Assembly (NCBI GenBank): GCA_016209865.1 | Contig: JACQVL010000272.1 | Location: forward strand, 1 to 39,365 | Source: Candidatus Latescibacterota bacterium | GTDB taxonomy: Bacteria > JAAXHH01 > JACQVL01 | Direction: 5' to 3' | DNA length: 39,365 nucleotides | In this document: positions 1,258 to 37,497 of the stretch, one piece after another | Layout of the letters: every line of letters starts with the position of its first letter | Position numbering within the stretch: position 1 is the stretch's first letter | The notes under the pieces: generated by a model | The model's database searches: none | Seen by the model: only the letters and a program-made list of their open reading frames with translations | Told to the model about the DNA's origin: nothing | Made by a program: the position numbers and the translations under genes

Positions 1258-1286
1258 AGACAGCAGCGCTCGGAAGAGAAGCTCCC

Positions 1287-3478: not shown

Positions 3479-3531
3479 CCGAGACAGGTCCTCCGCGGGG
3501 ACAAGTTCCGTGGGAATAACAACTGGTTTTT

Positions 3532-3574: not shown

Positions 3575-3588
3575 GTCATGAGGAAACT

Positions 3589-4842: not shown

Positions 4843-4878
4843 TTCCAGAGGCCCTTACTGGAAGGGAGGAGAACTACG

Positions 4879-6684: not shown

Positions 6685-6713
6685 CCCGTACACGCGCTGA
6701 AGGGAGGAAGGGT

Positions 6714-7970: not shown

Positions 7971-8001
7971 CATAGAATTCATCCGTTGAAAGGAAACCAC
8001 T

Positions 8002-9084: not shown

Positions 9085-9104
9085 CATTACCGGATGGGCG
9101 TCAG

Positions 9105-10316
9105 ATGCGCACGTTCGTGCAATACGGAACGGGGAACATCGGCCGGTCGTTGATGGGGCAACTGTTCTCCCGCGCGGGCTATGAGGTGATCTTTATCGGC
9201 CGCAATCAGCGGATCATCGAAACCCTCAACCGCGAGGGACGGTACCTCGTCGAAGTCAAGGATGAACAGCCGGACGAAATCTGGGTCGAGCACGTCCGGG
9301 GCATCTTAGCGTCCGACCGGGACCGGGTGATCGAGACGATCGCGCGCGCGGACCTGATAGCCACCGCCGTCGGCCCGAACTCGCTGCCTCAGCTCTACGA
9401 CGTGATCGCGGCGGGGATCCTCAAACGGAGCCAGCCGCTCAACATCCTCATCTGCGAGAACCTCCGGTGGATGTCCCGCATCTTCAGAGCAGGATTACTG
9501 CCCTATCTGCCCGCAGATTATCCGTTCGATGAGCGAGTCGGACTGATCGAGACGAGCATCGGGAAGATGGTGCCCATCATGCCGGAGGAGATCCAGCGTG
9601 CCCATCCTACCCGCATCTGGGCGGAGGCCTATAACCTCCTGCTCGTGGACAAACGGGGGTTCGTGGGGGAGATTCCCCAGGTCGAGGGGATGATCGCCAA
9701 AGCCAATTTTGATGCCTGCGTCGATCAAAAACTGTTCGTCCACAACCTCGGCCACGCGACGATCGCCTACCTGGGCTACCTGATGGAGCCGTCGAACCCG
9801 TTCATCTGGAAAGCGATCTCTCACCCGGCCGTCGAACAGGTGGTGAGGGGCGCGATGTGGGAATCAGCCAACGCCCTGATCGACGAGTATCCGGGTGAAT
9901 TTACCACTCAGACCCAGCACACGCACATCGAAGACCTGATCCGGCGGTTCAAAAACCAGTTTCTGAACGATACCCTCTACCGCGTCGGTCGAGACCTCCC
10001 CCGCAAGTTAGGACCGGACGAACGGCTCGTCGGCGCGGCGAAGATGGCGCTCAAGCATCGCATCCCGCCTCGACACATCGCGCTCGCCATCGCCGCAGGG
10101 TTTCGGTTCCGGGCAACGGACGAACGGGGTGAACTGTTTGACGGGGACCGCTTGTTCCATGCGGAGCTTGTCAGACGAGGACTGCCGGCCCTCCTGCAGA
10201 CCGTCTGCAGCCTCGACTCGCAGCAGGACCGTGCCCTGATCGAATTGATCGAACGGAGTGATACGATGCTGAGGGAGCGGAAAACAAGCGTCGATCTCTC
10301 CCATCTTCTCGAGTGA
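9105..10316 (+). CDS. Mannitol-1-phosphate 5-dehydrogenase / long-chain mannitol dehydrogenase-like protein
   Basis: QYGTGNIGRSLMGQLFSRAGYEVIFIGRN; TAVGPNSLPQLYDVIAAGI; LFVHNLGHATIAYLGYL. Confidence 0.8.
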   Translation: MRTFVQYGTGNIGRSLMGQLFSRAGYEVIFIGRNQRIIETLNREGRYLVEVKDEQPDEIWVEHVRGILASDRDRVIETIARADLIATAVGPNSLPQLYDVIAAGILKRSQPLNILICENLRWMSRIFRAGLLPYLPADYPFDERVGLIETSIGKMVPIMPEEIQRAHPTRIWAEAYNLLLVDKRGFVGEIPQVEGMIAKANFDACVDQKLFVHNLGHATIAYLGYLMEPSNPFIWKAISHPAVEQVVRGAMWESANALIDEYPGEFTTQTQHTHIEDLIRRFKNQFLNDTLYRVGRDLPRKLGPDERLVGAAKMALKHRIPPRHIALAIAAGFRFRATDERGELFDGDRLFHAELVRRGLPALLQTVCSLDSQQDRALIELIERSDTMLRERKTSVDLSHLLE

Positions 10317-10334
10317 TAATCAGGAGAGTCAACG

Positions 10335-11336
10335 ATGATCACAACCCTTGATGTCAGTGAGCAGATACAGGTCGTCGAACTCGCGCCTTCTAGAAGCAGT
10401 TTACCTTTACCGACCACCGACCACCGATCACCGACCACCGACTTAGTCTGCGTCGGTCACATCATCTCGGAGATGATCCATTTCCCGTACGACGTCAAGG
10501 GCCCGTTCCTGGGCAGTCCGCCCGCTTATTGCGCCACGGCGGCGGCCCGGCAGGGCACGGCAACCGGACTGGTCACCAAGATTGGCCCCGATTTCCCGCC
10601 GGGTCTGCTTCAGCCGTTGCGTGACGCCGGGGTTGATCTGACTGGTCTCCTGACCGGCGACCGGACGACGACCACCGAGCTGATTTACGACGCGCAGGGA
10701 CATAAAGAGATCCGCTATCCCACCAAAGCGTCTCCCATCACCGCAGAGGATATCCCGTCCTCATACCACGGCTGCCGGATGGTCTACGTGTGCCCGATGG
10801 ATCTCGATGTGCTGCCCGAGAACTTAGCCGGGGTGGCGGCTTTAGGGCGGGTGAGTGCCGTCGATTTAGGGGGGTACGGCGGCGTCCACATGAGCAGAAC
10901 GACCCGTGCCGCCGTTCCCTCCCTGATCGACCTGGCCTGCGGGACGGCGGAACACTTCACCATCGTCAAAGCGTCCGATGAGGACGCGGCGGCCATCTTC
11001 GGATGGGATAACCCGGACGAGGCCGCGACACGATTCCTGGCCTGTGGCCCGGCGGTCGTCGTCATCACGATGGGCGCGAAGGGCGCGCTGGTATCTACCG
11101 TCGAACACCGCTGGCACGTGCCCCCCCTGCCGGGAACAGTGGTCGACACGACCGGAGGAGGGGACACGTTCATGGCCGGGTTCTTATCGCACTATCTCCG
11201 GTATGCCGATCCTTTTGAAGCCGCCCGATGGGGATGCGCGACCGCCATCTGGGTGATCGAGCAGAGCGGCGGGGTGCGGCCGGAGCGGATGCCCACCCAC
11301 CAGCAGGTTCAGGAGCGTGTCGCCTCATACCGGTAG
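10335..11336 (+). CDS. PfkB-family carbohydrate kinase
   Basis: LVCVGHII.EM; VVITMGAKGALV; DTTGGGDTFMAGFLSHYL signature. Confidence 0.85.
   Translation: MITTLDVSEQIQVVELAPSRSSLPLPTTDHRSPTTDLVCVGHIISEMIHFPYDVKGPFLGSPPAYCATAAARQGTATGLVTKIGPDFPPGLLQPLRDAGVDLTGLLTGDRTTTTELIYDAQGHKEIRYPTKASPITAEDIPSSYHGCRMVYVCPMDLDVLPENLAGVAALGRVSAVDLGGYGGVHMSRTTRAAVPSLIDLACGTAEHFTIVKASDEDAAAIFGWDNPDEAATRFLACGPAVVVITMGAKGALVSTVEHRWHVPPLPGTVVDTTGGGDTFMAGFLSHYLRYADPFEAARWGCATAIWVIEQSGGVRPERMPTHQQVQERVASYR
10410..10442. repeat. Heptanucleotide tandem repeat (CCGACCA) x ~4.7 inside the 5' end of the PfkB ORF
   Basis: ccgacca ccgacca ccgatca ccgacca ccgac, encoding PTTDHRSPTTD. Confidence 0.85.
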
Positions 11337-11363
11337 TAGGGGCGAATCATGATTCGCCCCTAC
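11336..11363. repeat. Perfect 28-nt palindrome GTAGGGGCGAATCATGATTCGCCCCTAC
   Basis: Self-complementary over its whole length; overlaps the last base of the PfkB stop codon. Confidence 0.9.
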
Positions 11364-11402
11364 AGGTTTGTTTGTCAAAAATCATTAGAAAGGAGTGATA
11401 CA

Positions 11403-12578
11403 ATGACAGAGGTCAGAATGGGAATCGTCGGTTGCGGGAGCATCGCGGAGATCGCGCATCTTCCGTCGCTCACCCAGCGCAAAGAGGCGAAGCTGATCGC
11501 CGTGTGTGACCTGGATGCGGATCGTGCGCAGGCGATCGCCGCTAAATGGGGGGCGGAACAGTGGTTCACCGACTACCGGACGATGTTCGAACGGGCCACA
11601 CTCGACGCGGTGGTGATCGCCACTCCGAATAACCTTCACCGCAACCAGGCGGTGGCGGCCGCGCAGGCGGGCGTGCACATGCTCGTCGAAAAACCGTTGG
11701 CCGTGACCAACGGGGAAGCCTGGGACATCGTCAACGCCTGCAAACGCGCCGGAGTCAAGCTCATGGTCGGGTGCGACCGCCGGTTCTGGACGCACAATCA
11801 ATGGGCTAAGCAATTGATCGACGACGGGGTGATCGGGACGCTCTTGATGAGCCGGGCGTGCCTGCATGAACACTGGTATAATTACCAGAATCACGTGGCC
11901 CGGACGACGTTCCGTCTGGATTGCAGGGTGGCAGGGGGCGCCGCGCTGAACGACACCGGCGCGCACGCGATCGACCTGCTGACCTGGCTTAACGGCAGTC
12001 CGATCACACGCGCGGTCGGCGTCGCCAAACGCTTAGCGATGCCCGAAAGCTATACCCTGTGCGACGATACCGCCCTGGTCATGGTCGAGTTCGAGAACGG
12101 CGCGGTCGGGACGATCAGTTGCAATCGCTTTTCGCCCGCCGTCAACCAGGCGACCGAGCTGTGCGGCACGGAAGGGACGATCTTCACGGCGACCGACGCG
12201 ACCAACCCGTTCCAGAGCTGGCCGATGGCGGTCTACACCGACAAAGACTATACGGTCGAGACCCTGCCGCAGATTTTGAAGGATTACCGCTGGCCGCAGT
12301 TGTTCTGGGTTGAGGATATCATCGACCAGCACGTCCAAAAACGCTGGACCGCCATCTGCCCGCCGCGCAGGCCGAACAACTACGAGCGCATGACCGAGCA
12401 TTTCTTAGGTTGCATCATCAACGACACACCGCCCCTGGTCAGCGGAGAGGACGGCGCCCGCGCGGTCGAAGTGATGTGTGCGACCTGGAAGAGCGTCGAG
12501 ACCGGGGCCTGGGCGGAACTGCCTCTGACGGAAGAGGTGGTCCCTCCCTACTACGAGCCTCTGCCGAAGGAAGGGTGA
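11403..12578 (+). CDS. Gfo/Idh/MocA family oxidoreductase
   Basis: VRMGIVGCGSIAEIAHLPSL, VVIATPNNLH, MLVEKPLAVT. SD-like AAAGGAG upstream of ATG 11403. Confidence 0.88.
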   Translation: MTEVRMGIVGCGSIAEIAHLPSLTQRKEAKLIAVCDLDADRAQAIAAKWGAEQWFTDYRTMFERATLDAVVIATPNNLHRNQAVAAAQAGVHMLVEKPLAVTNGEAWDIVNACKRAGVKLMVGCDRRFWTHNQWAKQLIDDGVIGTLLMSRACLHEHWYNYQNHVARTTFRLDCRVAGGAALNDTGAHAIDLLTWLNGSPITRAVGVAKRLAMPESYTLCDDTALVMVEFENGAVGTISCNRFSPAVNQATELCGTEGTIFTATDATNPFQSWPMAVYTDKDYTVETLPQILKDYRWPQLFWVEDIIDQHVQKRWTAICPPRRPNNYERMTEHFLGCIINDTPPLVSGEDGARAVEVMCATWKSVETGAWAELPLTEEVVPPYYEPLPKEG

Positions 12579-12583
12579 GAGCC

Positions 12584-13570
12584 ATGGACACAGTCCTTGT
12601 CACCGGAGCCACCGGGTTTGTCGGCCGGGAAGTGGTGCGCCACCTGATCGAGCTGGGGAAGACCGTTACCGCCCTGGGCCGGACTCAGCCTGAGGAGCCG
12701 ATTCCCTTCATCCAGGCCGACCTGACGGACGCTGCCGGCCTGCAGCGAGCCTTGAACGGGCGCTCCTTCGACGGCATCATCCACTTAGCCTCCCTGCCGG
12801 GGGACACGGGCAACCCCATCCAGATGGTGCAAGTCAACGTCAACGGGTGCCAGAATCTCCTGGAATACGCCCGCCAGGCGGCCGTCAGCCGCTTTGTCTT
12901 AGCCAGCAGCATCTCCGCGTATGAATGGTATCCCGCGACGAAGTTCAATCCTCCAGACTCCATGCCGGTGGACGAGGACCATCCTTGCCGGCCGAAGGAC
13001 ATCTACTCGACGACCAAGCGGGTGCAGGAGCTGTTAGCCCTCACCTACTATCATCAGTACCAGCTTCCCGCCACAGTCTTACGCCTGACCGCCGTGGTCG
13101 GCCCGCATGGACGCGGAGGAGGTCGAGGCTGGCGGGAGTTCGCTGGACAATTAGCCGAAGGCAAGCGCGTGCAGGTGCCCCATTTCTCGGCGGAAGAACT
13201 CTGTCATTACGTGGATTTCAGGGACGTGGCGCGGATGCACGTCGCCGCCGCAGAGCATCCTGGCGCGGTCGGCCAGGTCTTCAACTGCTGCGGCCCCGTC
13301 CCCACACGGGGAATGGAATTCGTCGAAATCGTCAAACGCTTCGTCCCGGATATCGAGGTAGACTACGGCTTCCCCTGGAGCATGGCCCAGGGCGGGGAGA
13401 TCGCGTTCGATATGTCGAAAGCCAAACGACTCATCGATTTTGAGCCGCGTTACAACCTCTCGGATAGCATCAAAAGCATCAAGGACTGGATCGACGCTGG
13501 TGGTCTGACCGAAGCAGAGTCCGCCAGCGACCGGACCTACGGCGCTGGCGCGAAAAAAGGGCTGTCGTGA
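12584..13570 (+). CDS. NAD-dependent epimerase/dehydratase (extended SDR)
   Basis: VLVTGATGFVGREVVRHL; FVLASSISAYEW; DIYSTTKRVQELL (Y-T-T-K). Confidence 0.85.
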   Translation: MDTVLVTGATGFVGREVVRHLIELGKTVTALGRTQPEEPIPFIQADLTDAAGLQRALNGRSFDGIIHLASLPGDTGNPIQMVQVNVNGCQNLLEYARQAAVSRFVLASSISAYEWYPATKFNPPDSMPVDEDHPCRPKDIYSTTKRVQELLALTYYHQYQLPATVLRLTAVVGPHGRGGGRGWREFAGQLAEGKRVQVPHFSAEELCHYVDFRDVARMHVAAAEHPGAVGQVFNCCGPVPTRGMEFVEIVKRFVPDIEVDYGFPWSMAQGGEIAFDMSKAKRLIDFEPRYNLSDSIKSIKDWIDAGGLTEAESASDRTYGAGAKKGLS

Positions 13571-17347: not shown

Positions 17348-17390
17348 GGAAGCGGGGAAGTGCAGACCCATGCCACAGGAGGAGCACCTC

Positions 17391-18413
17391 ATGACACCGC
17401 GCACACGATTCCTACGCGCTCTGAAGCGCGAACCCACGGACACCGTGGCCGTCGGGAATCCCACCTCGATCATCACCACCGATCTCATGGAGCAGACAGG
17501 CAGCTATTTCCCGGAAGCGCACACCGACGCCGACACGATGGCACAGTTAGCTGCGGCGGGGTATGAGATTTTAGGCTACGACACCATCGCGCCGTACTTC
17601 TCCGTCCAACAAGAGGCGGCGGCGTTCGGCTGTCGGGTGAACTGGGAAGATAAGGAACACATGCCAACCGTGCGAGGGCATCTGTTCGAGACGCCCGACG
17701 ACATCAGCATTCCGGAGGACTATCTCACCCGTCCCCCGACGCGCGCGGTGCTCGACGCGCTGCGTATCCTCAAACGACGGTACGATGATGAGGTCGCGTT
17801 GATCGGCAAAGCGATGGGACCGTGGACGCTGGCGTACCACCTCTTCGGGCTTGAGCCGTTCCTCATCCGGATCATCGACGCGCCTGATGAGGTTCATGCC
17901 ATCCTGGAACGGCTGATGAAAGCCACCGTGATGTTTGCCCAGGCCCAGATCGAAGCCGGGGCGGATTGTATCACCCTGCCAGACCATCTGACCGGCGACC
18001 TGTGCAGTGCCGCGACATATCGGGATTTTCTGTTGCCCATCCATCAGCAGATTCGCGCCCAACTCGACATCCCGATCATCCTGCACATCTGCGGTGCGAC
18101 ACTGGATCGCTTGGATTACATCGCCCAGACCGGGTTCGACGCGTTCCATTTCGACTCGAAAAACGACCCCTACAAAACGGTGGAGATCGCCGGCGATCGC
18201 ATCGCCCTGGTCGGCCATATCAATAACCCTGAGACGCTGTATAAAGGGAAGATGGAGCAGATCGACAGAGAGGTTGCCGACGCGATCCAGGCGGGAGTGG
18301 CCGTCATCGCGCCGGAGTGTGCAGTCCCGTTGAATATGGACTCGAAAGGGCTCAAGCGGATCGTGGACGCCGCCAGAGCGTATGCGAAAGGGGTGAAGGA
18401 TGATGGGGCATGA
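17391..18413 (+). CDS. MtaA/CmuA-like URO-D-family methyltransferase with H-x-C...C zinc signature
   Basis: ILHICGATLDRLDYIAQTGFDAFHFDSKNDPYKTVEIAGDRIALVGHINNPETLYKG...VIAPECAVPLNMDSKGLKRIV. His and Cys codons at 18084-18092, distal Cys codon 18318-18320. Confidence 0.8.
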   Translation: MTPRTRFLRALKREPTDTVAVGNPTSIITTDLMEQTGSYFPEAHTDADTMAQLAAAGYEILGYDTIAPYFSVQQEAAAFGCRVNWEDKEHMPTVRGHLFETPDDISIPEDYLTRPPTRAVLDALRILKRRYDDEVALIGKAMGPWTLAYHLFGLEPFLIRIIDAPDEVHAILERLMKATVMFAQAQIEAGADCITLPDHLTGDLCSAATYRDFLLPIHQQIRAQLDIPIILHICGATLDRLDYIAQTGFDAFHFDSKNDPYKTVEIAGDRIALVGHINNPETLYKGKMEQIDREVADAIQAGVAVIAPECAVPLNMDSKGLKRIVDAARAYAKGVKDDGA

Positions 18414-19434
18414 TGACAGCCTGGAACAGGTCCTGCGGCGGCATCGGGCGTTCTGGACGATGGAAGATGTGGATGGACCGCTGCTGAGCGTCGGACGGTA
18501 CGAACCCCTTCAACGCCGGCAACCCTTCCGCCTGGCCGATGGTTCGCTGACGCAGGAAGGGACCCGGCTCCTTCCGGAATTCATGGATGTCCACCACCTC
18601 GCTGAACAGCAAGATCCCCCATCCGTAGTGGTGAGCGGGGGCTTTATCCAGGCCTCCGCCCCCTACGACCTGTGCTGGAACGAGGCCATCGCCGGCTGCC
18701 CCATCCGCTGGAAGACGGGACACGTCTGGTCAGAGCCGTTCCTGAACGATGTGGACGACCTGGAGCGGCTAAGGGTTGTCTCCGATAATCCCTGGCTGAA
18801 CATACTCCTGGCAATGACACGTCTTCTGGCCAAGCAGGCAGAGGGACGGTATCCCGTCTGCCAGCCGCTGCTGCGCGGGCCGATCGACATCGCGTCGGCG
18901 CTGATAGGGGATGAGTCGCTCTGCTGGACGATCTTGGACGAACCAGTCCGGTTCAAACACCTGCTCGAAGTCTGCACCCAGGTTTTTATCACGGTCGCTA
19001 AGGCATGGGCCGCTGTCGCTCCCCTATTTCAGGGGGGCTCCTGCGAATACGGCATCTGGGCACCGGGGAGAATCGTCCGCCTGCAGGCAGACAACGCGGC
19101 GTTGCTCTCGCCACGGCTGTACCGGGATTTCCTGCTCGCTTGCGATGAGCGTATCTGCGCCGCGTTCGACTACCCACTGATCCACACACATTCCGGGGTG
19201 CTCCACATCATGGTGGACGCGCTGCTGGCCCTCAACCCCCTGCGCGCCATCCAGGTGAGCATGGATTATCCAGGAGGGCCGCCGCTGGCAGAGTTGTTGC
19301 CCCTCTTCAGGCAGATCAACGCACACAAACCGCTCATCATCACGGGACCGGTGAGTCAGTCAGAGCTTGATCTTCTCCTGCAATCGTTATCGCCACGAGG
19401 GGTTTGCCTTCAGGTCACGCTGCACAGTGATTGA
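18400..19434 (+). CDS. URO-D-fold superfamily protein (divergent)
   Basis: LLRGPIDIASALIGDESLCWTILDEP; LSPRLYRDFLLACDERICAAFDYPLIHTHSGVLHIMVDALLAL. Start overlaps the upstream stop by 14 nt. Confidence 0.65.
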   Translation: MMGHDDSLEQVLRRHRAFWTMEDVDGPLLSVGRYEPLQRRQPFRLADGSLTQEGTRLLPEFMDVHHLAEQQDPPSVVVSGGFIQASAPYDLCWNEAIAGCPIRWKTGHVWSEPFLNDVDDLERLRVVSDNPWLNILLAMTRLLAKQAEGRYPVCQPLLRGPIDIASALIGDESLCWTILDEPVRFKHLLEVCTQVFITVAKAWAAVAPLFQGGSCEYGIWAPGRIVRLQADNAALLSPRLYRDFLLACDERICAAFDYPLIHTHSGVLHIMVDALLALNPLRAIQVSMDYPGGPPLAELLPLFRQINAHKPLIITGPVSQSELDLLLQSLSPRGVCLQVTLHSD

Positions 19435-19450: not shown

Positions 19451-21118
19451 ATGACAGTCCGTCCCAGAGAGACTCCGGAGACCAACCTGGTCTGGCGGCT
19501 GAACGGTAGAGGGTTTGACTCCCTCGGACTGTTCAGCCTCCCCAGACCCACCATCACAGACGACCAGCTCCTGGTGCGGCAGGAAGTCGCCACGATCTGC
19601 TTTTCCAGCGTCAAGGTGATCATGGCGGGAGAGACACATCCCCGCTTGCAGGGACGAGATTTAAGCACAGCGCCGGTCGTGTTGGGGGATGAAGCGTTCG
19701 TGGTCGTGGAAGAGGTGGGACGGAATCTCCGCCATCGGTTCAAGGTGGGAGAGGGATATGCGATCATGCCCGACCTGGGGACGAACGCGTTCGGTTACGA
19801 CATCGACGGCGGGTTGCAACGGTACAACGTGTTGGAAGGAAGGATTCTCGATGCCCTCTTGCCCGTCGAGCAAGCCACGATCGCGCGAGCCGGGATGTTT
19901 GCCGTGTCGCTGTCGGAGCCGCTCGGGTGTGTTGAAAAGTCCTACCATCTGGAATACCGGACCGGGCTGAAAGAACGAGGTGCCTTGCTCATCGCCAGGA
20001 CGGGTGTTTCCACTGTCGATCAGGAGATCGTTTTCCAGCAGACGCTCACCGTTGAGATCGCCGCGAAACGCCCCAGCAGGATCGTTGGGGCAAGCCTGAC
20101 GGACGATCTGACTGAGGCGATACGGAGGCAGGCGGAACGGGCCGGCATCGACTTGATCTCCCTCGACCGCCTTGAGTCGATCTCCACTGCGGTGAGACCG
20201 TATACAGCAGCCGGGTTCGATGACATCATCCTGCTCGGCGGCGGTCAGGCTGAGACGATCGGCCGGGTTGCACGTGAGACTATAGACCTGCTTGCTCCGG
20301 CCGGCATCCTGAACCTGGTGGGGAATATCCCTTCCGGCACTCCCCTTCCCATTGACATCGGCCGGACGCACTACGACAGGACGCTGGTCGTCGGCACAGC
20401 AGAGCCTGATTTTTTACACGCGTACCGTGCGAACACGGATCACGAACTCAGGGAAGGGAGCGTAGCGGTCTTTATCGGGGCGGGCGGCCCGATGGGGCAA
20501 CTCCACCTGCTGCGCGCGATGGGCATGGACGCCCCGCCCGCGAAGATCATCGCGGTTGAAGTGGAACCAGCGCGGCTCGCCAAACTCGAACGATGGCGGC
20601 AAAAGCAGTATGCACCCGCCGGCACCGAACTGATGGTCATGAACCCGAACACCCAGCACATCGCGGACGTCCTGGCGGGCGATGCGATCAATTGCCTGGT
20701 GCTGTTGTCCCCAGTCGCGCAGATCATCGAGGAGTACACCCCCTATTTTGCTCCAAAGGCGGTGGTGAACGCATTTGCGGGACTGAAAGGACAGCAGATC
20801 ACGCTGGACGCAGCCGTTCTCTGTCAGAAACACCTCAGAGTGGTGGGACATAGCGGCGTCGATGTGGCCACACAACGGTTGGCGTTAGAGAAGATCGCCC
20901 AGGGCAAGATTTCTGTGGACCCCGTGGTGAGCGCGGTGGGAGGCATCCAGGCGGCGCGGGATGCTCTGTGGGCGACCGCTCAGAGCACGTATCCCGGCAA
21001 GATCGTCCTATATCTCAGCATCGACCTGCCCCTGACCCCGATCGAAACGATCACGGGGGAGGATGTCTGGTCGGCGGAGCATGAAAGGGCGCTGTTGAGG
21101 AAAAGCGGGGGTTGGTGA
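19451..21118 (+). CDS. Long MDR-type dehydrogenase (sorbose-phosphate-reductase-like, ~555 aa)
   Basis: TICFSSVKVIMAGETHPRLQGRDLSTAPVVLGDEAFVVVEEVG; two Rossmann-like segments (DDIILLGGGQAETIGRVARETIDLL and VAVFIGAGGPMGQLHLLRAMGM). Confidence 0.65.
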   Translation: MTVRPRETPETNLVWRLNGRGFDSLGLFSLPRPTITDDQLLVRQEVATICFSSVKVIMAGETHPRLQGRDLSTAPVVLGDEAFVVVEEVGRNLRHRFKVGEGYAIMPDLGTNAFGYDIDGGLQRYNVLEGRILDALLPVEQATIARAGMFAVSLSEPLGCVEKSYHLEYRTGLKERGALLIARTGVSTVDQEIVFQQTLTVEIAAKRPSRIVGASLTDDLTEAIRRQAERAGIDLISLDRLESISTAVRPYTAAGFDDIILLGGGQAETIGRVARETIDLLAPAGILNLVGNIPSGTPLPIDIGRTHYDRTLVVGTAEPDFLHAYRANTDHELREGSVAVFIGAGGPMGQLHLLRAMGMDAPPAKIIAVEVEPARLAKLERWRQKQYAPAGTELMVMNPNTQHIADVLAGDAINCLVLLSPVAQIIEEYTPYFAPKAVVNAFAGLKGQQITLDAAVLCQKHLRVVGHSGVDVATQRLALEKIAQGKISVDPVVSAVGGIQAARDALWATAQSTYPGKIVLYLSIDLPLTPIETITGEDVWSAEHERALLRKSGGW

Positions 21119-21152: not shown

Positions 21153-23444
21153 ATGGTCAGTACCCTCATTCACACATGTCTGGACACAGAACGGGTCGCA
21201 GACCTTCGTCGTCGCGTTCGTGCGGCGATGGAACGACCACCCGTGAAGTGGGAGTGTCCAGCGTGCATCGACGACCGGTTTCTGTCCGAACCGTTGCCCG
21301 TGCGGAAGTCCAGGGCGATCGCCCTGAAGCTCTCTCACATGCCCGCCGGTCTCTGGGATGGGCAAGTGTTCGCCGGTTCGATGACGCTTGAAACCCCGCG
21401 TCTGCACACCGAATGGCGTTTCCCCGACTACACCACAGACGCCGAGCGGGCAGAAGCCGCACAACGGGGTCTGAGCATCCAATCCGTGTTCGGTCACGTC
21501 GTTCCGGACTATCCCAAACTGTTGCAGAAGGGACTATCCGGCATCCTTGCCGACGTCGCCGCTCAGCGACCTCAGGCTCAGACGGCTGAAGAGCACGTGT
21601 TCCTCGATTCCGTCGTGGTCGCTGTTGAGGCGGTGATGGGGTACGCCTCACGACTGGCCGTACGCTGTGAGACAGAAGCCGCACGGCAGTCCGATCCGCA
21701 GCGCGGGGCGGAACTGCGGCAGATGGCCGCCAACCTCCACCAGGTGCCCGCTGGACCGGCTCAGACGTTCTGGCAGGCCCTTCAATCGATCTGGCTGTTG
21801 CATCTGATGTTCCATTCCACGATGGACGGCAACGCCATGGGGCGTGTGGATCAGTATGTCTGGCCCTACCTGCATGCCGATCTCCAGGCAGGACGCACTG
21901 ATCTCGAACGCGCGGCGGAACTGGTTGACTGCTTCTGTCTGAAATTCAACGAACGTGCCCAGACGACGGAGGAACAGCGTCCAGAGACGCGGGAGTCCGA
22001 ACCCATCGACCCCATCCGCCGGGGACATCATGACACGTCCTCGCAGCTTGGCCGGCAGCGAGACCGGCTGGACGCCACGAATCACTGGCTGCAGAACATC
22101 ATCATCGGCGGGCTTACCCCCGACGGCGCTGATGGGACGAATCCCCTCACCTTTTTGCTGTTGGAAAGCTACCGCCGCAACCAGATGACCAACCCGGTGA
22201 TGACCGTCCGCGTGCATCGCCGTTCGCCCGATGCGCTCGTTCGCTACACGTGCGAGGTGCTCAAGGACGGCGGCGGAATGCCCGCTCTCTTCAACGACGA
22301 AACCCTGGTGCCAGCCCTGGAACGGCTCGGTATCCCTCGACCGGATGCGCGTGATTACACGAACGACGGCTGCTGGGAGGTGATCATCCCCGGACGGACC
22401 GATTTTCGCTTTCAGCGCCTCAGCCTGATGCTCTGCCTGGAACGGGCGCTCACCCGAGGCCGCTCGCGCCTCGACGGGACGCAGCGAGGGCCGGATACCG
22501 GGGATGCGCGCGCGTTCTCCAGTTTCGAGGACATTTGGCAGGCGTTTCTGATCCAGTTGGACGCGATGATCGGGTGGACGGTCCGCCGGGTCGTGGAGAC
22601 GATCGACGACCGGTACACCATCGCGCCCGTGCCCCTGCTCAGCGCGTTGATCGACGGCGCGATCCATTCGCGTCGAGACATGACGGCGGGCGGCGCGAAG
22701 TTCCGGACGTACGGGATGCTCGCCGAGAGCGCGGCGCATACGATCGATTCGCTCACGGCCATCAAGACGGTGATCTTTGAACAGCAGAAGGCGAGCATGC
22801 CGGAATTGTGTGATGCGCTGGACGCTAATTTTGAAGGATACATCCCCTTACGGAACCAATTGCTCGCCGCCCCAAAGTATGGCAACGACGATGATCGGGC
22901 TGATGCCGTCGGTCAGGCGGTCATCGAGGCGTTCGTCACGACGGTCGGCCGGCACGCTGAAGCCCATCGCACGGTGATTCAATTTCCGTGCGGGGTGGGA
23001 ACCTTCTCATGGTACATCGGGATCGGAGAAGGGCTCGGTGCGTCCCCTGACGGACGGCCGTCCGGCGACCCCGTCTCATCAAACTTTTCTCCGGCGTTAG
23101 GACGCGACCTGGAGGGCATTCCCGGGGCGATCCTGTCGTACGCCAGGATGCCTCATCGCAGCCTGTCCGCTGGCGGCCCGCTCGACCTCCGCCTGGCACG
23201 CCGTCTGGTCGAGGGCGAAGAGGGCACCGCACGGATGGCCGCGCTCATCCGCAGTTTCGTGGAGACCGGAGGCGCGATGATGACGTTGACCGTCGCCGAC
23301 ACGGAGGAACTGCGGGCAGCCCAGCGCGAGCCCGACAAGTACCGGTCCCTCAGAGTCCGGATGGGCGGCTGGTGCGCCTACTTTACGATGCTGAGCCACG
23401 AACAGCAGGAACACCATATCCGTCGTCAAGAGGGCCGCTCATGA
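21153..23444 (+). CDS. Glycyl radical enzyme (pyruvate formate-lyase-like family), function unknown
   Basis: [50 protein letters not shown] (thiyl Cys, C-x-E; Cys codon 22371-22373); C-terminal [24 protein letters not shown] (glycyl codon 23367-23369). Confidence 0.88.
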
Positions 23445-24377: not shown

Positions 24378-24656
24378 ATGAATGCACGAGAGCGCTTTCA
24401 TGCTACGTTTGAGTACGGTCAACCCGACCGTGTTTTTTTGATGTCGCAATGGGCGTTCAACGACACCAGACAACGATGGCTGCGCGACGGGTGCACCAGG
24501 AAGGAGATCGAGCATGAGGTGCTATCCAAAGTCCCGCAACTGGTCAAGGACGGCGGCTTCTCCCCGATGGTAGACCACGCCGTCCCGCCCGATGTCCCGT
24601 TCGACAATTTCAAGTATTACATCGACCTTGTCCATGAGGTCTGCACGTATGGATGA
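24378..24656 (+). pseudogene. Mini URO-D ORF: N-terminal ~41 aa joined in frame to C-terminal ~51 aa of a URO-D-like protein
   Basis: MNARERFHATFEYGQPDRVFLMSQWAFNDTRQRWLRDGCTR | KEIEHEVLSKVPQLVKDGGFSPMVDHAVPPDVPFDNFKYYIDLVHEV. 92 aa against ~340-360 aa for full-length paralogs. SD-like GAAGGAATGAAGAG upstream. Confidence 0.65.
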
Positions 24657-25740
24657 ACGTTACATGGCTTTTATGGGTTTAGCTCCGAGACGGATTCCCC
24701 ACTGGGAGCATTGGTCGTGTCCGGATGCGGAAACGTATCTCGCCGGGATTGACTACTACGAGCACCCGAAGCTGTGCCGTGAACGCCTCAAAGAACTTTA
24801 CCCGATGCTGAACTTGCCAGTTCCGGCGGATGACACGCCGAAGCCACGCCCCAGCCTCGGCCTGGAAGACGAAACCACGAGCGTGGACGAGGATGGGTGT
24901 CACTTCGTTCGCTGGGGAGACGGGAAATCGTGGCATTGGGATTGGGGGAAGCGATTTGCCTCCGTAGAGGAAGCGTTCTCTTTTTCCCCTCTTGAACAGG
25001 GCGATTTTACTCACATCCCGGTGGTCGAGTCGCGTGACTACTCGGATGAGGAGCGTCTCTACCAGGAGTACCGTAGCCATTACCCGGCTGAATGGGAGGA
25101 CAAGGCCCCGGAAGGCTCCTCCGCTACTGTGGGGTTCTACAACACCATGTTTATGTGGCCACTCCTCATGTTTGGGTGGGAACTCTTCATGGAGATGTGT
25201 CTGGACGAGCGTTTTCAACGAATCATGGACGAGTTCGCGGAGATCAATCGGCGCGTATTCCGTGTTTTTGCATGCCTGCCGGTGCACTTTGTCGTCTGCC
25301 ATGACGATATCGTCACCGCACGCGGACCGGTCTGCTCGCCCAAGTGGATGCACAGGTATATCTTCCCACGGTACGAAGAGTTCTGGGGAATGCTGAAAGC
25401 CGCTGGCAAGGAAGTGCTCTTCATGGCGGATGGCTGCATGGACCGGTACGCCGACGATATCTTCGTGTGCGGCGCTCGTGGGATCATCACCGAACCGTAC
25501 ACCGATTTCAAGACGATTGCCCGCAACCACCAGGATTGCTTCCTCGCCGGGGAAGGGGACAACCGCATCCTCACGCGGAACGATCCCGACGAAATCAAGG
25601 CGATGGTGCTGAATATGCTTGAAACCGCAAACATGACGGGCGGCTACGTCATGAGTATCGGCAACCATATCCCCTGGAACGTCACACCGGAGGGTATCAA
25701 ACGGTATCTTGACCTCTCAGTAGAGCTCGCACACCGGTAG
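24649..25740 (+). CDS. URO-D-fold superfamily protein
   Basis: MDERYMAFMGLAPRRIPHWEHWSCPDAETYLAGIDYYEHP; HDDIVTARGPVCSPKWMHRYIFPRYEEFWGMLKAAGKEVLFMADGCMDRYADDI; TGGYVMSIGNHIPWNVTPEGIKRYL. Overlaps the upstream ORF by 8 nt. Confidence 0.78.
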   Translation: MDERYMAFMGLAPRRIPHWEHWSCPDAETYLAGIDYYEHPKLCRERLKELYPMLNLPVPADDTPKPRPSLGLEDETTSVDEDGCHFVRWGDGKSWHWDWGKRFASVEEAFSFSPLEQGDFTHIPVVESRDYSDEERLYQEYRSHYPAEWEDKAPEGSSATVGFYNTMFMWPLLMFGWELFMEMCLDERFQRIMDEFAEINRRVFRVFACLPVHFVVCHDDIVTARGPVCSPKWMHRYIFPRYEEFWGMLKAAGKEVLFMADGCMDRYADDIFVCGARGIITEPYTDFKTIARNHQDCFLAGEGDNRILTRNDPDEIKAMVLNMLETANMTGGYVMSIGNHIPWNVTPEGIKRYLDLSVELAHR

Positions 25741-25954
25741 AAGGGCAGTGTGGCTGGACATCGAAAGCCCCGATGAAAGAGGTTGAATACGACGTCGTCG
25801 ATAAGCCGATTCGGTGGTATTAGGAGGGGCGCCAATCCAGAAAGAGTCACACGAAAGCGCGAACACGCACCGCATGAGGGGTTTGTCCGGTTCGTCGTAC
25901 CGGAGTTACTGGTCTACACGCTCATCATCGTGGACCTGCAAGAGGAGTCGCATC

Positions 25955-26314
25955 ATGCTTAGCTCACGAGAACGTGTGAATCGTGCCTTACAGCACCAGG
26001 AGCCGGATCGGGTGCCGCTGGACTTGGGGGCCAGCGCGGTGACCGGCATGCAGGTGAACGTGGACGCTGCGGAACTCAAGCAACAGTATGGGGATCGCCT
26101 CGCCTTCTGGGGCGGCGGAGTGAACACCCAGCATACCCTCCCCTTCGGGACGCCGGATGAGGTGCGTCAAGAGGTCCGTGAACGGATCAAGATTTTCGGT
26201 CAAGGGGGCGGGTTTGTGTTCAACACGATCCACAATGTCCAGGCTCTGATTCCCATCGAGAACGTCCTCGCGCTCTACGAAACGGTACGCGAGTACGGGC
26301 GCTATCCCCTGTAG
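25955..26314 (+). pseudogene. Second mini URO-D ORF: N-terminal ~32 aa joined in frame to C-terminal ~87 aa
   Basis: MLSSRERVNRALQHQEPDRVPLDLGASAVTGM | QVNVDAAELKQQYGDRLAFWGGGVNTQHTLPFGTPDEVRQEVRERIKIFGQGGGFVFNTIHNVQALIPIENVLALYETVREYG; GAGGAG SD upstream. Confidence 0.7.
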
Positions 26315-26338: not shown

Positions 26339-27463
26339 ATGAAGATCACGAAGGTAGAGACGTTGCTCGTGAAACCTCGTTCATTATTCCTCAAGATCCA
26401 CACGGATGAGGGACTGATCGGACTGGGAGAACCCATCCTCGAGGGGCGGGCGCTGACCTGCGCGACCGCGGTCGCTGAACTCGAGCCCTACCTCCGCGGC
26501 CAGGACCCGTGCCGGGTCGTCCACCACTGGCAGGCGATGTACCGGCATGCCTTCTACCGCGGGGGGCCCATCCTGACCAGCGCGCTGTCTGGAGTGGAAC
26601 AGGCCCTCTGGGACCTGACGGGCAAAGCCGCCGGACTGCCGGTGTACCGGTTGTTGGGGGGACCGCTGCGGGAGCGGATCCGGGTCTACGGCGGCGCTGG
26701 GGGCGGCACGCCAGAAGAAGCAGCAAAGAGTGCGAAGGCTTGCGTGGAGAAGGGCTATAATGCCTTCAAGACCGGGGTGTTCGGCGGGCGCCCAGCCCGG
26801 ATCGTGGAGTCGCTGGCCTTTGTGGAGCGGGCGGTGAACATCTTCTCAGCCATGCGCGAGGCCGTGGGGCCGGAGATCGACATGGCCATCGACTTCCACG
26901 GGGCGATCGGTCCGCAGACCGCGGCCCTGCTCATCAAGGCCCTGGAGCCGTACCAGCCGATGTTCGTCGAGGAACCGGTGCAGTGCCAGAATGTCGAGGT
27001 GTTAGCAGACCTGGCGCGCAAGACCCACATCCCCATCGCCACCGGGGAGCGCATCTTCACCAAGTGGGGCTTCCGGGAGATCCTGGAGCAGCGGGCAGCC
27101 TCCATTCTCCAGCCAGACCTGTCGCACGCTGGCGGCATCTTCGAGTGCCGGCTGATCGCGGGGATGGCCGAGAGTTACTACGCCGGGATCGCGCCGCACT
27201 GCCCGCTGGGGCCGATTGCCATGGCTGCCTGCCTGCAGCTCGACGCCGCCATTCCCAACTTCCTGATTCAGGAGCAGGGCTCGCTGGGGGTCGGGTACTT
27301 GAAACAACCGTTTGTGGTCAAAGACGGGTTCATCGAGCTGCCCCAGGGGCCAGGCCTGGGGATAGAGCTGGACGAAGAGGCGATGCAGGGGCAGATCACC
27401 CAAGAGGACTGGAAGAATCCGCAGACCTACCTGCCGGATGACGGCTCGGTCGTGGACTGGTAA
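26339..27463 (+). CDS. dgoD: D-galactonate dehydratase-like (enolase superfamily)
   Basis: MKITKVETLLVKPRSLFLKIHTDEGLIGLGEPILEGRA; FYRGGPILTSALSGVEQALWDLTGKAAGLPVY; MFVEEPV; IATGERIFTKWGF; ILQPDLSHAGGIFECR; HCPLGPIAMAACLQLD. Confidence 0.82.
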   Translation: MKITKVETLLVKPRSLFLKIHTDEGLIGLGEPILEGRALTCATAVAELEPYLRGQDPCRVVHHWQAMYRHAFYRGGPILTSALSGVEQALWDLTGKAAGLPVYRLLGGPLRERIRVYGGAGGGTPEEAAKSAKACVEKGYNAFKTGVFGGRPARIVESLAFVERAVNIFSAMREAVGPEIDMAIDFHGAIGPQTAALLIKALEPYQPMFVEEPVQCQNVEVLADLARKTHIPIATGERIFTKWGFREILEQRAASILQPDLSHAGGIFECRLIAGMAESYYAGIAPHCPLGPIAMAACLQLDAAIPNFLIQEQGSLGVGYLKQPFVVKDGFIELPQGPGLGIELDEEAMQGQITQEDWKNPQTYLPDDGSVVDW

Positions 27464-30289: not shown

Positions 30290-32245
30290 ATGCCCACGAC
30301 CAGAATCGCTCACCATCACGGGGCACCGACCCTGTTCATCTTATTCGGCCAGCACATCACCCCTGTGCTGGACCATGACCTGAACCTGACTCTTTCCAGC
30401 TCCGACGGCCGGCGGCTCTGGGAAAGTTCGCGCTCCCATCCTCCGACTTTCGCGGTGGTCGCCGGGGATGGAGCGAGACAGACCCTCCCGCTGTCGAGCG
30501 CGAAGGAGATTTCCGTCACAGATTTTGCCGAGGGTGCATACCATGGTCATACCGTGCGGCTGAGCGGGTACCCCGGTGCCAACCTTGCGCTGGAGCTCAC
30601 CCTCGCCATCGACCCGCGCTCGGATGAACTCTTGATTCAGACGGCCCAGACGCATGGGCCGGATACCGTGGTCCGCATCGACCATTGCTACCGATTCGAA
30701 AAACCCATCCTGGATGGCGGGTACATGGTCCTCCCGCATGGGTCGGGGTACCTCATTCCAGCGGCCTGTCCCGACGAACTACCGGGCCAGGGACTCCAGG
30801 GCGGTCTCATCGGCGCACGCTGGACGCTCCCGCTGTTCGGGATGGTCCGCGGTCGCGATGCGCTGTGCATCATCGTGGAGACCTGGTGGGACTGTGACGT
30901 GGCCGCCCTGCACCGGCCGGGCGACGGGTCTGCGCTGGATTTCTCCTGGCTGGACAGCCTGGGTACGCTGGACTACCCGAGACGATTCCTGTTGCGGTGT
31001 GCGGAGGGTCTGGACTACGTCGGCATGGCGAAGCTCTACCGCGAGTACGCCGGACAGCGAGGCCTGCTGTGCCCCCTCGCAGAAAAGGCAGAGCAGACGC
31101 CCATCATCACCCGGTATATCCAGAATATCCTCGTCCGCTGGCCTGCCTGGAGTCCCAGCGATGCGGAGACGGTGCTCACCGATCTTCGTCGGCTCCGGAC
31201 GATGGGGTTTGGGATCAACTTCTTCTTCCCGAAATGGTCATCCTCCGGCTACGCGCCGGAACGGGCGACCGCCACCACCGCCAACGCCGGCTGGCAGGCG
31301 TTCCTGCACCCCAACCCTGTACCAGGCGGCTGGTCGGCGCTGGTCGAGTACGCCCGCGCCATCCACGAACTCGGCTGCACGGTTCAGGGGTTTATCAACC
31401 CGCGCACCCAGGTTCCGGATGGCCCCGCGTTCGATGAGACGCGGTGGCCGCATGATGCAGATGGCCATCCGATCCATGACCTGAGCGTGCATGACGCGGT
31501 CGACCGCATCCAGCGGGTGCTGGACCACGTTGAAGGACAGAGATTACAGCTTGATGTGCTGTACTACGACGGCTACTCTGCCCATCTCGGCCTGCCGCCG
31601 GACCATTCCCCTGCGCATCCGGTGACCCGGCGTCAGACCTTCGAAGGACAGAACGCCTGCTTTGCCGAAACTCGCCAGCGTGGCATCATGCCAGGAGGTG
31701 AACTTGCCCGGTTCTGGTGCATGGCTGACTGCGATTACTTCTTCTTCACCGACTGGTCGAATGATCGTCTCGTGAATACCCCAAACCAGGGTGCGCCCGC
31801 GCCCGTGGGGGAGCCCATTCCCCTGTTCCAGCTTGTGTTCCATGATTGCTGTATCGCAGGTTTCTCAGGAGGAGGGTACCGGCTGTACGCGCCGGGCTAC
31901 GACTGGTGGCCAGACCGGACCCCCCGACTCTACGAGTTGTTGTTTGCGTCTGCGCCCGCACACAACTGGTTACCGGATGGATACGTTCCGGTGAGAGACT
32001 GGGACAGCCCTGCTGCCCGGCAACGCTGGCGCTGGCTGAAGCGCTGGAGCGCGTACTACTCCACGATCGCGATGGCAGAGATGGTCTCACACCGATTCCT
32101 GTCCGCAGATTCTACGCAGCAGCGTGTCGAGTTCGCCAACGGAGTGATCGCAGAGTTCAACAGGGTCTCCAATCAGTTCCGGGTCATCGGAGTCCCCGGG
32201 TTCAGTGGAGATTGGGAGAGGCCGGATTTGGAAGGGAACGGGTGA
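30290..32245 (+). CDS. Large glycoside-hydrolase-like barrel protein (possibly DUF5696 / GH101-related)
   Basis: N-terminal beta-rich domain, then LDYVGMAKLYREYAGQRGLL, LRTMGFGINFFFPKW, VQGFINPRTQVPDG, LDVLYYDGYSAHLG, MPGGELARFWCMADCDYFFFTDW. Confidence 0.45.
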   Translation: MPTTRIAHHHGAPTLFILFGQHITPVLDHDLNLTLSSSDGRRLWESSRSHPPTFAVVAGDGARQTLPLSSAKEISVTDFAEGAYHGHTVRLSGYPGANLALELTLAIDPRSDELLIQTAQTHGPDTVVRIDHCYRFEKPILDGGYMVLPHGSGYLIPAACPDELPGQGLQGGLIGARWTLPLFGMVRGRDALCIIVETWWDCDVAALHRPGDGSALDFSWLDSLGTLDYPRRFLLRCAEGLDYVGMAKLYREYAGQRGLLCPLAEKAEQTPIITRYIQNILVRWPAWSPSDAETVLTDLRRLRTMGFGINFFFPKWSSSGYAPERATATTANAGWQAFLHPNPVPGGWSALVEYARAIHELGCTVQGFINPRTQVPDGPAFDETRWPHDADGHPIHDLSVHDAVDRIQRVLDHVEGQRLQLDVLYYDGYSAHLGLPPDHSPAHPVTRRQTFEGQNACFAETRQRGIMPGGELARFWCMADCDYFFFTDWSNDRLVNTPNQGAPAPVGEPIPLFQLVFHDCCIAGFSGGGYRLYAPGYDWWPDRTPRLYELLFASAPAHNWLPDGYVPVRDWDSPAARQRWRWLKRWSAYYSTIAMAEMVSHRFLSADSTQQRVEFANGVIAEFNRVSNQFRVIGVPGFSGDWERPDLEGNG

Positions 32246-34321: not shown

Positions 34322-35299
34322 ATGCTGACCGCTCAACAACGGTTCCTACAGACGATGGCCTATGCTCCCGGTACCCGTCCACCTTTCTGGGAGGAAGGAA
34401 TCCGGGACGAGGTGTGGGAGACCTGGCGCCAGCAAGACGGCAGCTCGTCTGAGGAATTCTTGAAACAACACCCTTTCGACCGGTACAGCCTCGTGGAGGT
34501 CAATTTGCATCCGATCCCGGACTTCCAGGCCGATGAGGGACAGGATCGGTTCCAGCGCTTGCGGAGGCACTATCGAACCGATGCCGTCGCACGACTGCCG
34601 CACGATTGGACGGACCAGGTGCAGCGGTGGTCGCACCGCGACGAGCCCCTCGGGATGACGGTCAGCCGCGGGGTGTTTCGGTCGCTGAGGGTCGATGACT
34701 GGGGCACGCTGACGATGCTGCTCTTGACGATGGCTGACGATCCCGTCGTGATTGAGTCCATTATGGAAGACGTGACCGACCTGTCGCTGTGGGCATTGGA
34801 TCGGGTGCTTGCTGAACTGACGCTGGACTTTGCCATCTTCAACGAACCCATCGCCAGCTTCCATGCCCCGGTGCTCTCTCCGGCGTATTACCGACGGTTT
34901 GCCCTCCCTCACTACGTTCGTGTGATCGAACGCCTCCGGATGGCAGGCATCCCCGTGGTGGTGGTGCAGACGTACGGCAACGTGGAGCCATTGATCCCGC
35001 TCTGGCTGGAGGTAGGCGTCAATACGTTGTGGGGCTTCCATGCGAATCAGGCGAGGATGGATTATGTCGCGCTGCGGCAGCGGTATGGCAAGGCGCTTCG
35101 GCTCATCGGGGGCATGAACGCCGCCATGCTCCTGAAGGGCCAGGCCGCGATCGATGAGGAACTCAGGCGTACGGTCCTGCCCCTGGTCGAGGAAGGGGGC
35201 TACCTGCCGATGCTGGATGACCGGGTGCGTCCAGGAGTGCCGTATGCGCACTATCGCTACTACCGCACCCGGCTTGAGAGTCTGGTCGCAGGACAGTGA
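34322..35299 (+). CDS. URO-D-fold superfamily protein
   Basis: MLTAQQRFLQTMAYAPGTRPPFWEEG; LDFAIFNEPIASFHAPVLSPAYYRRFALPHYVRVIERLRMAGIPVVVVQTYGNVEPLIPLWLEVGVNTLWG; GGMNAAMLLKG; EEGGYLPMLDDRVRPGVPYAHYRYYRTRLE. Confidence 0.8.
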   Translation: MLTAQQRFLQTMAYAPGTRPPFWEEGIRDEVWETWRQQDGSSSEEFLKQHPFDRYSLVEVNLHPIPDFQADEGQDRFQRLRRHYRTDAVARLPHDWTDQVQRWSHRDEPLGMTVSRGVFRSLRVDDWGTLTMLLLTMADDPVVIESIMEDVTDLSLWALDRVLAELTLDFAIFNEPIASFHAPVLSPAYYRRFALPHYVRVIERLRMAGIPVVVVQTYGNVEPLIPLWLEVGVNTLWGFHANQARMDYVALRQRYGKALRLIGGMNAAMLLKGQAAIDEELRRTVLPLVEEGGYLPMLDDRVRPGVPYAHYRYYRTRLESLVAGQ

Positions 35300-35419: not shown

Positions 35420-37497
35420 ATGAACAGAGGTAGACCGATACAGATAAGGAGGAAGGGTAACGATTTGATCCTCAAAAACAGATGGCTGACCGTTGATTTG
35501 AAGGTCTCGGCCAATGGGTCACGATCACGTAGTCAGACGTGGAGACAGAAGACGTGATAAAAAAAGACTTGCTGGGCAGCGTCGTCGAGCTTGAGTTCAC
35601 CCTGGATCATCACCGGATTGAGGACTGGGCGGTGATGAGGGATGCTCACGATGAGACAATCTACAGGAGTGGCGAGTTTACTGCACAGCTCACCGTCACG
35701 CATCGTGCTCCGCGTGTTGATCTGCTGTCTGTGCATCTGGAGAAAGGTGGAAAAGGGTTTGATGTGAATCAGTTGCACGTGACGGTCAGGAGTCCCTTGC
35801 GCGATCTCCACCGGATCTGGGTACCGCATATGCTCTTAGAAGGCACCTTGGACAGAGTTACCTTAGGAGGTGGGCCAGGCATCCTGACCTGTGCCAATCG
35901 GGCGGTTGCCTTCGTGGCCGGTCTCAACCGGTACGGACGAAACCGGGTAAGTGTGGGGCTTTTGGATCAAACTATAGAAACAGAAGTCAGAGGAGGGGGG
36001 ATAACGGACAGCGGCCGGAATCGCATCGTGGAGTTTCTCCGCCCGTTTCCGGGACTGAGCCTGTATCGGACCGTCTACGAGGAGACGATCTACCTCAACT
36101 GCGAAGAGGGGTCGTGGTTCGAGGCGATGGCAGACTTCGCGAAGTATGAGGAGGAAGCCACCGGGGCAAGACCTGCCCCACGTCACCCGGACGCCGATCA
36201 ACCGCTTTACTGCACCTGGTACGCCCACGGGCCTCACGTGACGCAGGAGAAGATTGAGGCGGAGATCGACATGGTCAGAGATCTCGGTTTCAAGAACTAT
36301 ATCATCGATGAGGGGTGGTTCGGTCGGGAACCGGAGCCGTGGACCTACCGAGGGGATTACACCCCGGATCCAAACCGGTTCCCCGACTTTCACGGGATGA
36401 TCGAGAAACTGCACCGTGCCGGCTTGAACGTGATCCTCTGGGTCTCCCCGTTCCAGATCGGGAAGGCGAGCAGCCGGTATGAAGCGATGAAGCCCTACCT
36501 GAGCTGGTGGAACCAGTTCGGTGAGGTGCCCTACTTCATGGCCACGATGTGGCCGTGGGTGATGGGCGAGTTTCAGGGGGAAGTCCTTGCCGAGCGGCTG
36601 GAACTCTGTCCGCGCACAGGGATCACAGAAACATACGTGCCGGAACTGGTGGAGCGGTTGATGCGGGACTATGAGATGGATGGACTCAAGATCGATTTCC
36701 TGGATCAGATCATGGTGATGCCCTGTCGGGCGGATCATCCCCATCGCTACGAGAATCTGGGGGAGCCGGTCATGAAGACCGTCAGGGCGATGATTGAAGC
36801 GATCCGGGGGGTGAAGTCCGATGCGATCGTCGAGTTCCGCCCGCCGTACGCCAACCTGGTCCTGCGCCCATTTGCTACGCTCTACCGCGCTCAGGACTGT
36901 CCGTGGGATGTCGATATGAATCGACGACTGTGTGCGTGGATGAAGGCATTCACTCCGCAGCCGGGGCCGCTCGTTGTTGCAGATTACCTGACCTTTCCGC
37001 CGGAGGAGACCCCCATCAATATCGCCAAATCGCTGGCGGCGGTCATCCTCTACTCTGTTCCATCCGTCGCAGAGGATTTTCGGAAGTTATCGCCGGGGCG
37101 GATGGAGCTGCTGCGACAGTGGCTGGCCTTCTATAGCGCGCACCGGCAGGAATTAGTCACTGGCCGGTGGCGGCCGCTTGAATTCGACCCGCACTACTCG
37201 ACAGTGGTGATTGAGGGGGAACAGGAGACCTTCATCGGGTTTTTCAAGGAGACGCCGGGACAGGTCGCCCTGACAGCCGCCGCACCGGAGAGGATATATC
37301 TCATCAACGCGACGGGAAGTCCCTCAGTGCGCACCCGCCTGTCCGGGATTGCGGGGCACTATGACGCGACGGTCTGCGATCCCTTTCTCCGGGAGATCGG
37401 GCCTGGCTGTGTGACCGCGACGGAGCACGGAGTCGAGATCGATGAGAAGGTCCCGGAGGGGGGAATGCTCTGTCTCTCCCGAAAGAAGGGAAGATAG
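35420..37497 (+). pseudogene. GH36-like glycosidase with probable frame disruption near its 5' end (N-terminal frame 35420-35557, main frame from 35539)
   Basis: Upstream frame MNRGRPIQIRRKGNDLILKNRWLTVDLKVSANG... looks like a GH36 N-terminus. Main frame: IIDEGWFGREPEPWTYRGDYTPDPNRFPDFHGMIEKLHRAGLNVILWVSPFQIG, DGLKIDFLDQI. Confidence 0.6.

Follow-up and report, generated by a model that had tools for sequence, protein, structure and literature searches.

The window analysed here, a stretch of 39,365 nucleotides from a Candidatus Latescibacterota bacterium, contains a gene for a predicted glycyl radical enzyme (GRE) with unusual radical loops, which raises the question of whether the gene product is a true member of this superfamily and which type of reaction it might catalyze. 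The ATG start codon of the gene (Table 1) is located just downstream of the ribosome-site-like stretch GAGGAGGAG, and a GTG codon at position 21129 is a possible alternative start. The deduced protein matched the Pfam models PFL-like (451 bits, cut-off 24.3, 7e-135) and Gly_radical (54 bits, cut-off 22.2, 2.6e-14). The loops were numbered against glycerol dehydratase (GD) by means of an L-INS-i alignment of 54 GREs. In the Cys loop, C433 and E435 of GD correspond to C407 and E409 and V434 is replaced by W408; in the glycyl loop, G763 corresponds to G739 and V761, A762 and Y764 are replaced by M737, G738 and W740. The translation thus contains both the VRMGGW and the C-W-E loop that the first-pass annotation had read from the DNA. 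Its remark that a Pro usually follows the CXE motif needs correction, as HypD reads CVET and YbiW CIET, and so does the label 'PduC-type GD' for a GRE, PduC being a B12-dependent enzyme. The features of the superfamily, namely both domains, the aligned radical Gly and thiyl Cys and a radical-SAM activase, were all detected, and the window gene is predicted to encode a genuine GRE in which G739 would carry the glycyl radical.

Table 1. Features of the window and of the sister-clade loci (positions refer to the sequence named in the first column)
Sequence	Feature	Position	Strand	Basis or remark
Window	MtaA/CmuA-type URO-D-fold protein, upstream of GRE	17370..18413	+	TIGR01463 and NF004889 over cut-off
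Window	Second URO-D-fold protein	18400..19434	+	Pfam
Window	Alcohol-dehydrogenase-like protein, directly upstream of GRE	19451..21118	+	Weak ADH_N, weak scyllo-inosose dehydrogenase model
Window	GRE gene, 763 aa	21153..23444	+	Stop-free translation; PFL-like and Gly_radical matches
Window	H115 codon, putative beta-1 catalytic site (GD H164/HypD H160 column)	21495..21497	+	Alignment
Window	Cys loop TNDGCWEV (C407, W408, E409)	22359..22382	+	Translation
Window	R422 codon, proposed anion clamp (PFL R435 column)	22416..22418	+	Alignment
Window	Glycyl loop LRVRMGGW, predicted radical Gly G739	23349..23372	+	Translation
Window	Radical-SAM GRE activase, 304 aa	23441..24355	+	TIGR02494, 295 bits (cut-off 174); CPLSCQWC
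Window	Galactonate-dehydratase-type MR/MLE enzyme	26339..27463	+	NF010624, 470 bits; homologues in 4 other loci
L051, Flavobacterium sp. IB48	GRE, then separate DyP gene	1129-5606
L052, Hymenobacter MAG	GRE, then separate DyP gene	9635-13557
L019, H. cellulosilyticus plasmid	GRE gene split, then separate DyP gene	5722-9061
L054, Azohydromonas australica DSM 1124	DyP-GRE fusion	8576-12157
L057, Saprospiraceae MAG	DyP-GRE fusion	8591-12196
L143, Asticcacaulis plasmid	DyP-GRE fusion	3657-7637
L142	DyP-GRE fusion	1486-5127	-

Relatives were collected by running a profile, generated from a Hymenobacter relative together with the window protein, over one genome per species, which resulted in 59 loci. 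A family of 31 loci (L020-L047, L056, L069 and L075) includes proteins that are 57-78% identical to the window GRE in the best segment, with the exception of L046 from a termite-gut Oscillospiraceae MAG at 47%; across the aligned rows the identity to the window is about 48-78%. According to the record titles, the hosts belong to the Armatimonadota (including Hebobacteria), Chloroflexota, Planctomycetota, Poribacteria and Sumerlaeota. The family alignment comprises 28 rows, the window and 27 loci, four loci being omitted as truncated or broken, and both N-D-G-C-W-E and R-M-G-G-W are invariant in all of them. This invariance ruled out RMGGW as a sequencing error or one-off; the loops noted as atypical are real but represent a family signature and not an individual anomaly, and a distinct sister clade has this glycyl loop as well. 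The glycyl loop was readable in 64 of the 69 GRE-like ORFs in the fetched loci and reads VRMGGW in 32 of these 64 (28 of the family and four of the sister clade), a proportion that is not the frequency among all GREs because the scan was seeded from the RMGGW clade. A family member at L056:9839-11296 shows an apparently broken or internally deleted GRE frame, in which an N-terminal match is followed by the RMGGW end within 486 aa.

The distribution of the family is patchy. With a threshold of E <= 1e-200, it was detected in at least 10 of 291 genomes of the Armatimonadota (phylum of L021), at least 5 of 84 of the Poribacteria (phylum of L044), at least 4 of 248 in the class of L024 (a Phycisphaerales record) and at least 6 of 249 in that of L023 (an Anaerolineae record), these counts being lower bounds because only part of the first-look candidates was scored. 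Among 16 genomes of the window's phylum, a family member is present only in the window's own genome; the other match, in G015, is at most 35% identical. A second GRE of the window's own genome (L005, L017), represented by its N-terminal part and cut by the contig end, is located on contig C146 at about 2805-3440. The environmental GREs L003, L014, L015 and L016 (G015, of the window's own order) also have odd thiyl loops (GCNW, NDGCSE, NDGCTE and ACNR), and their glycyl loops include RVWGF. Additionally, plasmid Mpl of Novosphingobium sp. PP1Y, presumably an aerobic host, encodes a GRE-like protein (L018:7407-9905) with AGCLG replacing CXE and an RIGGC glycyl loop, which is unannotated in the table of that locus.

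None of the NCBIfam GRE models reached its cut-off with the window GRE. The scores were 412 bits for PFL2-3 (cut-off 678), 358 and 310 bits for (2S)-3-sulfopropanediol dehydratase (1000), 346 bits for both HypD (1100) and CutC (1050), 206 bits for IAD (1100) and 157 bits for HPAD (1150), the last five models thereby placing the protein outside the respective families. The PFL model yielded 75 bits, and the best PDB match by sequence was CutC with 343 bits. A quick tree with 54 rows gathered the 27 family rows without exception on one branch (SH-aLRT 97), which was joined to four RMGGW sister rows (SH-aLRT 98). A careful tree had 31 rows, among them 10 of these family rows as well as six from the sister clade and six references; it gave UFBoot/SH-aLRT values of 100/98 for the family, 100/100 for the sister clade and 100/96 for both together, and split the two clades from GD, the pdu GRE, CutC, HypD, YbiW and PFL at 100/99, the long rows PFL, L071 and L015 being unsurely placed. 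The placement is relative to these reference enzymes; a search for a true HPAD reference in eight genomes yielded none, and viral contigs scanned with P0001 and the NDGC-x-E pattern provided nothing useful. An enzyme of uncharacterized specificity had been proposed beforehand, and the NCBIfam cut-offs and the trees placed the protein in no characterized clade. As to whether RMGGW is common in a clade of known function, the loop was found in the uncharacterized family and in the distinct sister clade, and searches of the open-licence literature listed no paper that appeared to describe the RMGGW clade. The family is real, conserved and uncharacterized. Scattered over several little-cultivated phyla, a compact and well-conserved GRE family of this kind would perform an anaerobic reaction of the sugar type that has yet to be described, and the residues invariant in it define a testable substrate class.

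The AF2 model of the window GRE (pLDDT 91.7, pTM 0.92) shows the GRE barrel. A comparison by VIA-align, in which rows within 1 Z unit are regarded as ties, yielded Z 42.3 to the Archaeoglobus fulgidus PFL2 (2f3o; 703 residues, rmsd 2.5), 40.8 to propanediol dehydratase (PD), 40.3 to GD, 39.6 to CutC, 39.4 to HypD and 31.4 to PFL. The matches to PD, GD, HypD and CutC at Z 39-41 were counted in favour of an eliminase, with 2f3o ranking first and with structural Z not separating the GRE classes.

The activase that had been postulated beside the GRE gene was recovered by the TIGR02494 model; its start overlaps the GRE stop codon, and the protein carries two ferredoxin-type cluster motifs. An activase ORF adjoins the GRE gene or is located within 1.5 kb of it in 26 of the 31 family loci as well as in the window. 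With respect to the other five loci, the contigs of L045, L069 and L075 end inside the GRE gene and that of L020 about 1 kb downstream, and L023, with full flanks, contains no activase ORF beside the GRE gene. Both family genomes tested hold a TIGR02494 activase over the cut-off. A conserved operon naming the substrate was rejected, as no neighbour other than the activase is general across the family loci. The recurring neighbours comprise MR/MLE dehydratases (five loci, window included), a sulfatase-type cluster (five), an FAD-oxidoreductase cluster (four), an AKR-ferredoxin cluster (four) and URO-D genes (L022 and the window).

All genes called within the window are located on the + strand, and those with a family match are mostly carbohydrate genes, together with many URO-D-fold genes. 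The carbohydrate matches include GH36, GH10, GH2, CBM9, BNR and a 3-keto-disaccharide hydrolase domain; further genes encode a sugar-acid dehydratase and a PfkB kinase, and others Gfo/Idh enzymes, a homologue of inositol-phosphate synthase and a member of the mannitol-dehydrogenase family. The ADH_N match of the gene directly upstream of the GRE gene is under the Pfam cut-off, and a TTG start at 19367 is also possible. The abundant URO-D-fold genes occupy positions 1287-3475, 17370-19434, 24378-26314 and 34322-35296, with Pfam matches starting at 1287, 2399, 17370, 18400, 24592, 25955 and 34322. The ORF at 25955-26314 appears to consist of N- and C-terminal pieces with the middle absent, and a short ORF at 24378-24656, judged by eye, shows a similar pattern. 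The same locus encodes a weak melibiase-like protein (36028-37494) and a 651-aa protein without a Pfam match (30290-32242); Rfam gave no match. The first-pass annotation had suggested a sugar-derived substrate, and the richness of the window in glycosidase, sugar-dehydrogenase and sugar-acid genes agrees with this view. The genomic context nevertheless supports sugar metabolism loosely, because the gene content differs around other family members.

Two published accounts describe C-X-E as conserved among GRE eliminases, with the Glu hydrogen-bonded to a substrate hydroxyl, and a common beta-1 catalytic site that is occupied by H160 in HypD and D216 in CutC (PMC7077986, PMC8473560). The motif is present as C407-W408-E409 in 28 of 28 family rows, and H115 falls in the beta-1 column, with His in 27 of 27 family rows; CXE and H115 point to eliminase chemistry. 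All 27 family rows have Arg in the R422 column, as do none of the four sister rows and one of 23 other rows, the sole case being R435 of PFL, which contacts the pyruvate carboxyl (PMC10653868). The alignment places Y450 of HypD, which is reported to bind the Hyp carboxylate, in the same column. In BSS, Arg508 is reported to sit on the fumarate carboxylate at C493+15, and R422 has the same spacing (C407+15). The residues F418, F420, R422 and S424 are conserved in 27, 27, 27 and 26 of 27 family rows and alternate with variable residues on one predicted strand (416-424), as barrel-facing residues would do, the putative position of R422 being taken from the sequence alignment and this strand pattern. 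The Arg in the carboxylate-binding column of PFL may thus provide a hint to the substrate that goes beyond the earlier reading.

Since R422 aligns with the carboxylate-binding Arg of PFL and is combined with CXE and H115, we propose that the window GRE is a radical-SAM-activated CXE eliminase (dehydratase) whose substrate would be an anion with several hydroxyl groups, probably similar to a sugar acid; we give this assignment about even credence. The R422 column, the BSS spacing and the strand alternation lead us to infer that such an eliminase would possess an anion clamp. The activase would generate the radical on G739, from where it would pass to C407, and the C407 thiyl would abstract a hydrogen from a hydroxylated carbon of the substrate. 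E409, paired with H115, might accept the hydroxyl proton while R422 would grip the substrate carboxylate (or a phosphate or sulfonate), so that the neighbouring group, most likely OH, would depart and a deoxy oxo-acid product could enter the sugar pathway encoded around the GRE gene.

A group other than OH (phosphate, sulfonate, an amine, or the oxygen of an ether or anhydro-sugar) might also depart, in the manner of the CutC, IslA or YbiW/PflD-type enzymes, which share the CXE loop. This is unlikely in our view, even if sulfatase-cluster genes occur near five loci and the structures of YbiW and PflD, by their titles, contain anhydro-sugar phosphates: the sulfatase link is not general in the family, the CutC and sulfopropanediol dehydratase cut-offs were not reached, and the window GRE is devoid of the CutC-specific residues (the D216, T502 and Y506 columns contain H, F and R), while YbiW has F in the R422 column. 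The annotation 'eliminase or decarboxylase' made earlier stands in its first part by virtue of CXE and H115, and decarboxylation is possible but less favoured. CXE is also present in arylacetate decarboxylases, the Glu of which could act here in the same way on a carboxylate held by R422, and an Arg clamp suits an acid; the HPAD and IAD scores far under their cut-offs and a set of annotated window genes that includes no aromatic-acid genes make a decarboxylase quite improbable. A dehydratase of neutral polyols, of the glycerol or propanediol type, would agree with H115 and CXE as in GD and with the close structural match to PD and GD (Z 40.8 and 40.3). It is the least probable of these reactions, very unlikely in view of the Arg in a pocket-side column, the separation of the family from the GD clade and the residues H281, S282 and D447, which are substrate contacts in GD and in the family fall in a deletion (H281, S282) or a variable column (D447).

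On these three columns (gap, gap, variable), membership of the window GRE in GD/PD was rejected, and that in HypD, CutC and PFL was rejected on scores and substrate residues. HypD D278, D339 and Y450 are not conserved in the family, the S334 column being unsure, as residues near the GD F333/HypD S334 site are not reliably alignable because of an insertion. The Cys-Cys pair and R176 of PFL are absent, the window GRE having G406-C407 and H115.

The sister clade was found with seven members, and in all seven a DyP-type heme peroxidase is linked to the GRE (Table 1). The four fused proteins contain Dyp_perox_C followed by PFL-like in one chain, and in L019, L051 and L052 the DyP gene directly follows the GRE gene. 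The DyP portions match DyP enzymes of solved structure. In the fused domain of L054, the GXXDG-type motif has retained its Asp, and a His and an Arg stand at conserved places, residues with known roles in DyP enzymes. In the GRE portions, the Cys loop (as C-Y-E) and the His are retained, and so is the Gly loop, with RMGGW in six members and RQGGW in L142. No TIGR02494 activase over the cut-off was detected in the four sister genomes searched (L051, L052, L054 and L057; best score 42.5 bits), and we take the hosts of this clade to be aerobes. The clade is rare: at E <= 1e-100 and with the query genome included, it occurs in 1 of 395 genomes in the class of L052 and in 2 of 369 in that of L054. 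A model of a DyP-GRE fusion, computed from a multiple alignment without free DyP rows, is of low quality in its DyP portion (mean pLDDT 70.7, with residues 161-335 below 50), so it does not bear on domain contact. The R-x-G-G-W superclade might use two radical routes, a radical-SAM activase in anaerobes and, in the aerobic sister clade, a fused or adjacent DyP peroxidase that would generate or renew the glycyl/thiyl radical without SAM, with GRE chemistry in air; we consider this unlikely, and peroxidase-driven activation in the sister clade is speculative. On one reading the DyP protein removes peroxide for a GRE activated by an unrecognized route, and on another both act in sequence on one substrate. 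The open-licence literature gave no match for a DyP-type peroxidase together with a glycyl radical. If a heme peroxidase makes the glycyl radical in aerobes, this would break the rule tying GREs to radical SAM and anoxia; the sister clade is the more surprising of the two and poses the sharper question.

A comparison with known systems summarizes the position of the window GRE. With the CXE eliminases GD, PD, CutC and HypD it shares the barrel, C-X-E, the beta-1 His (Asp in CutC), the radical Gly and a dedicated activase; it differs from them by 25-30% identity, by W within CXE, by RMGGW replacing RV-A-GY and by the loss or replacement of the GD, HypD and CutC residues named above. PFL has in common with it the Arg at the R435 carboxylate position, the radical Gly and a Cys, whereas the window GRE shows CXE in place of the Cys-Cys pair, is devoid of R176 and is far less similar to PFL. 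The A. fulgidus PFL2 is the top structural match, but only 30% identical, and we know of no reaction assigned to 2f3o. The DyP-linked sister GREs resemble the window GRE in R-x-G-G-W, CXE, H115 and the insertion region and, in the four rows tested, in the signature N310/W312/Y621; in contrast, they are at most 34% identical, do not contain R422 and, in presumably aerobic hosts, combine the GRE with a fused or adjacent DyP peroxidase in place of a recognized activase (four genomes).
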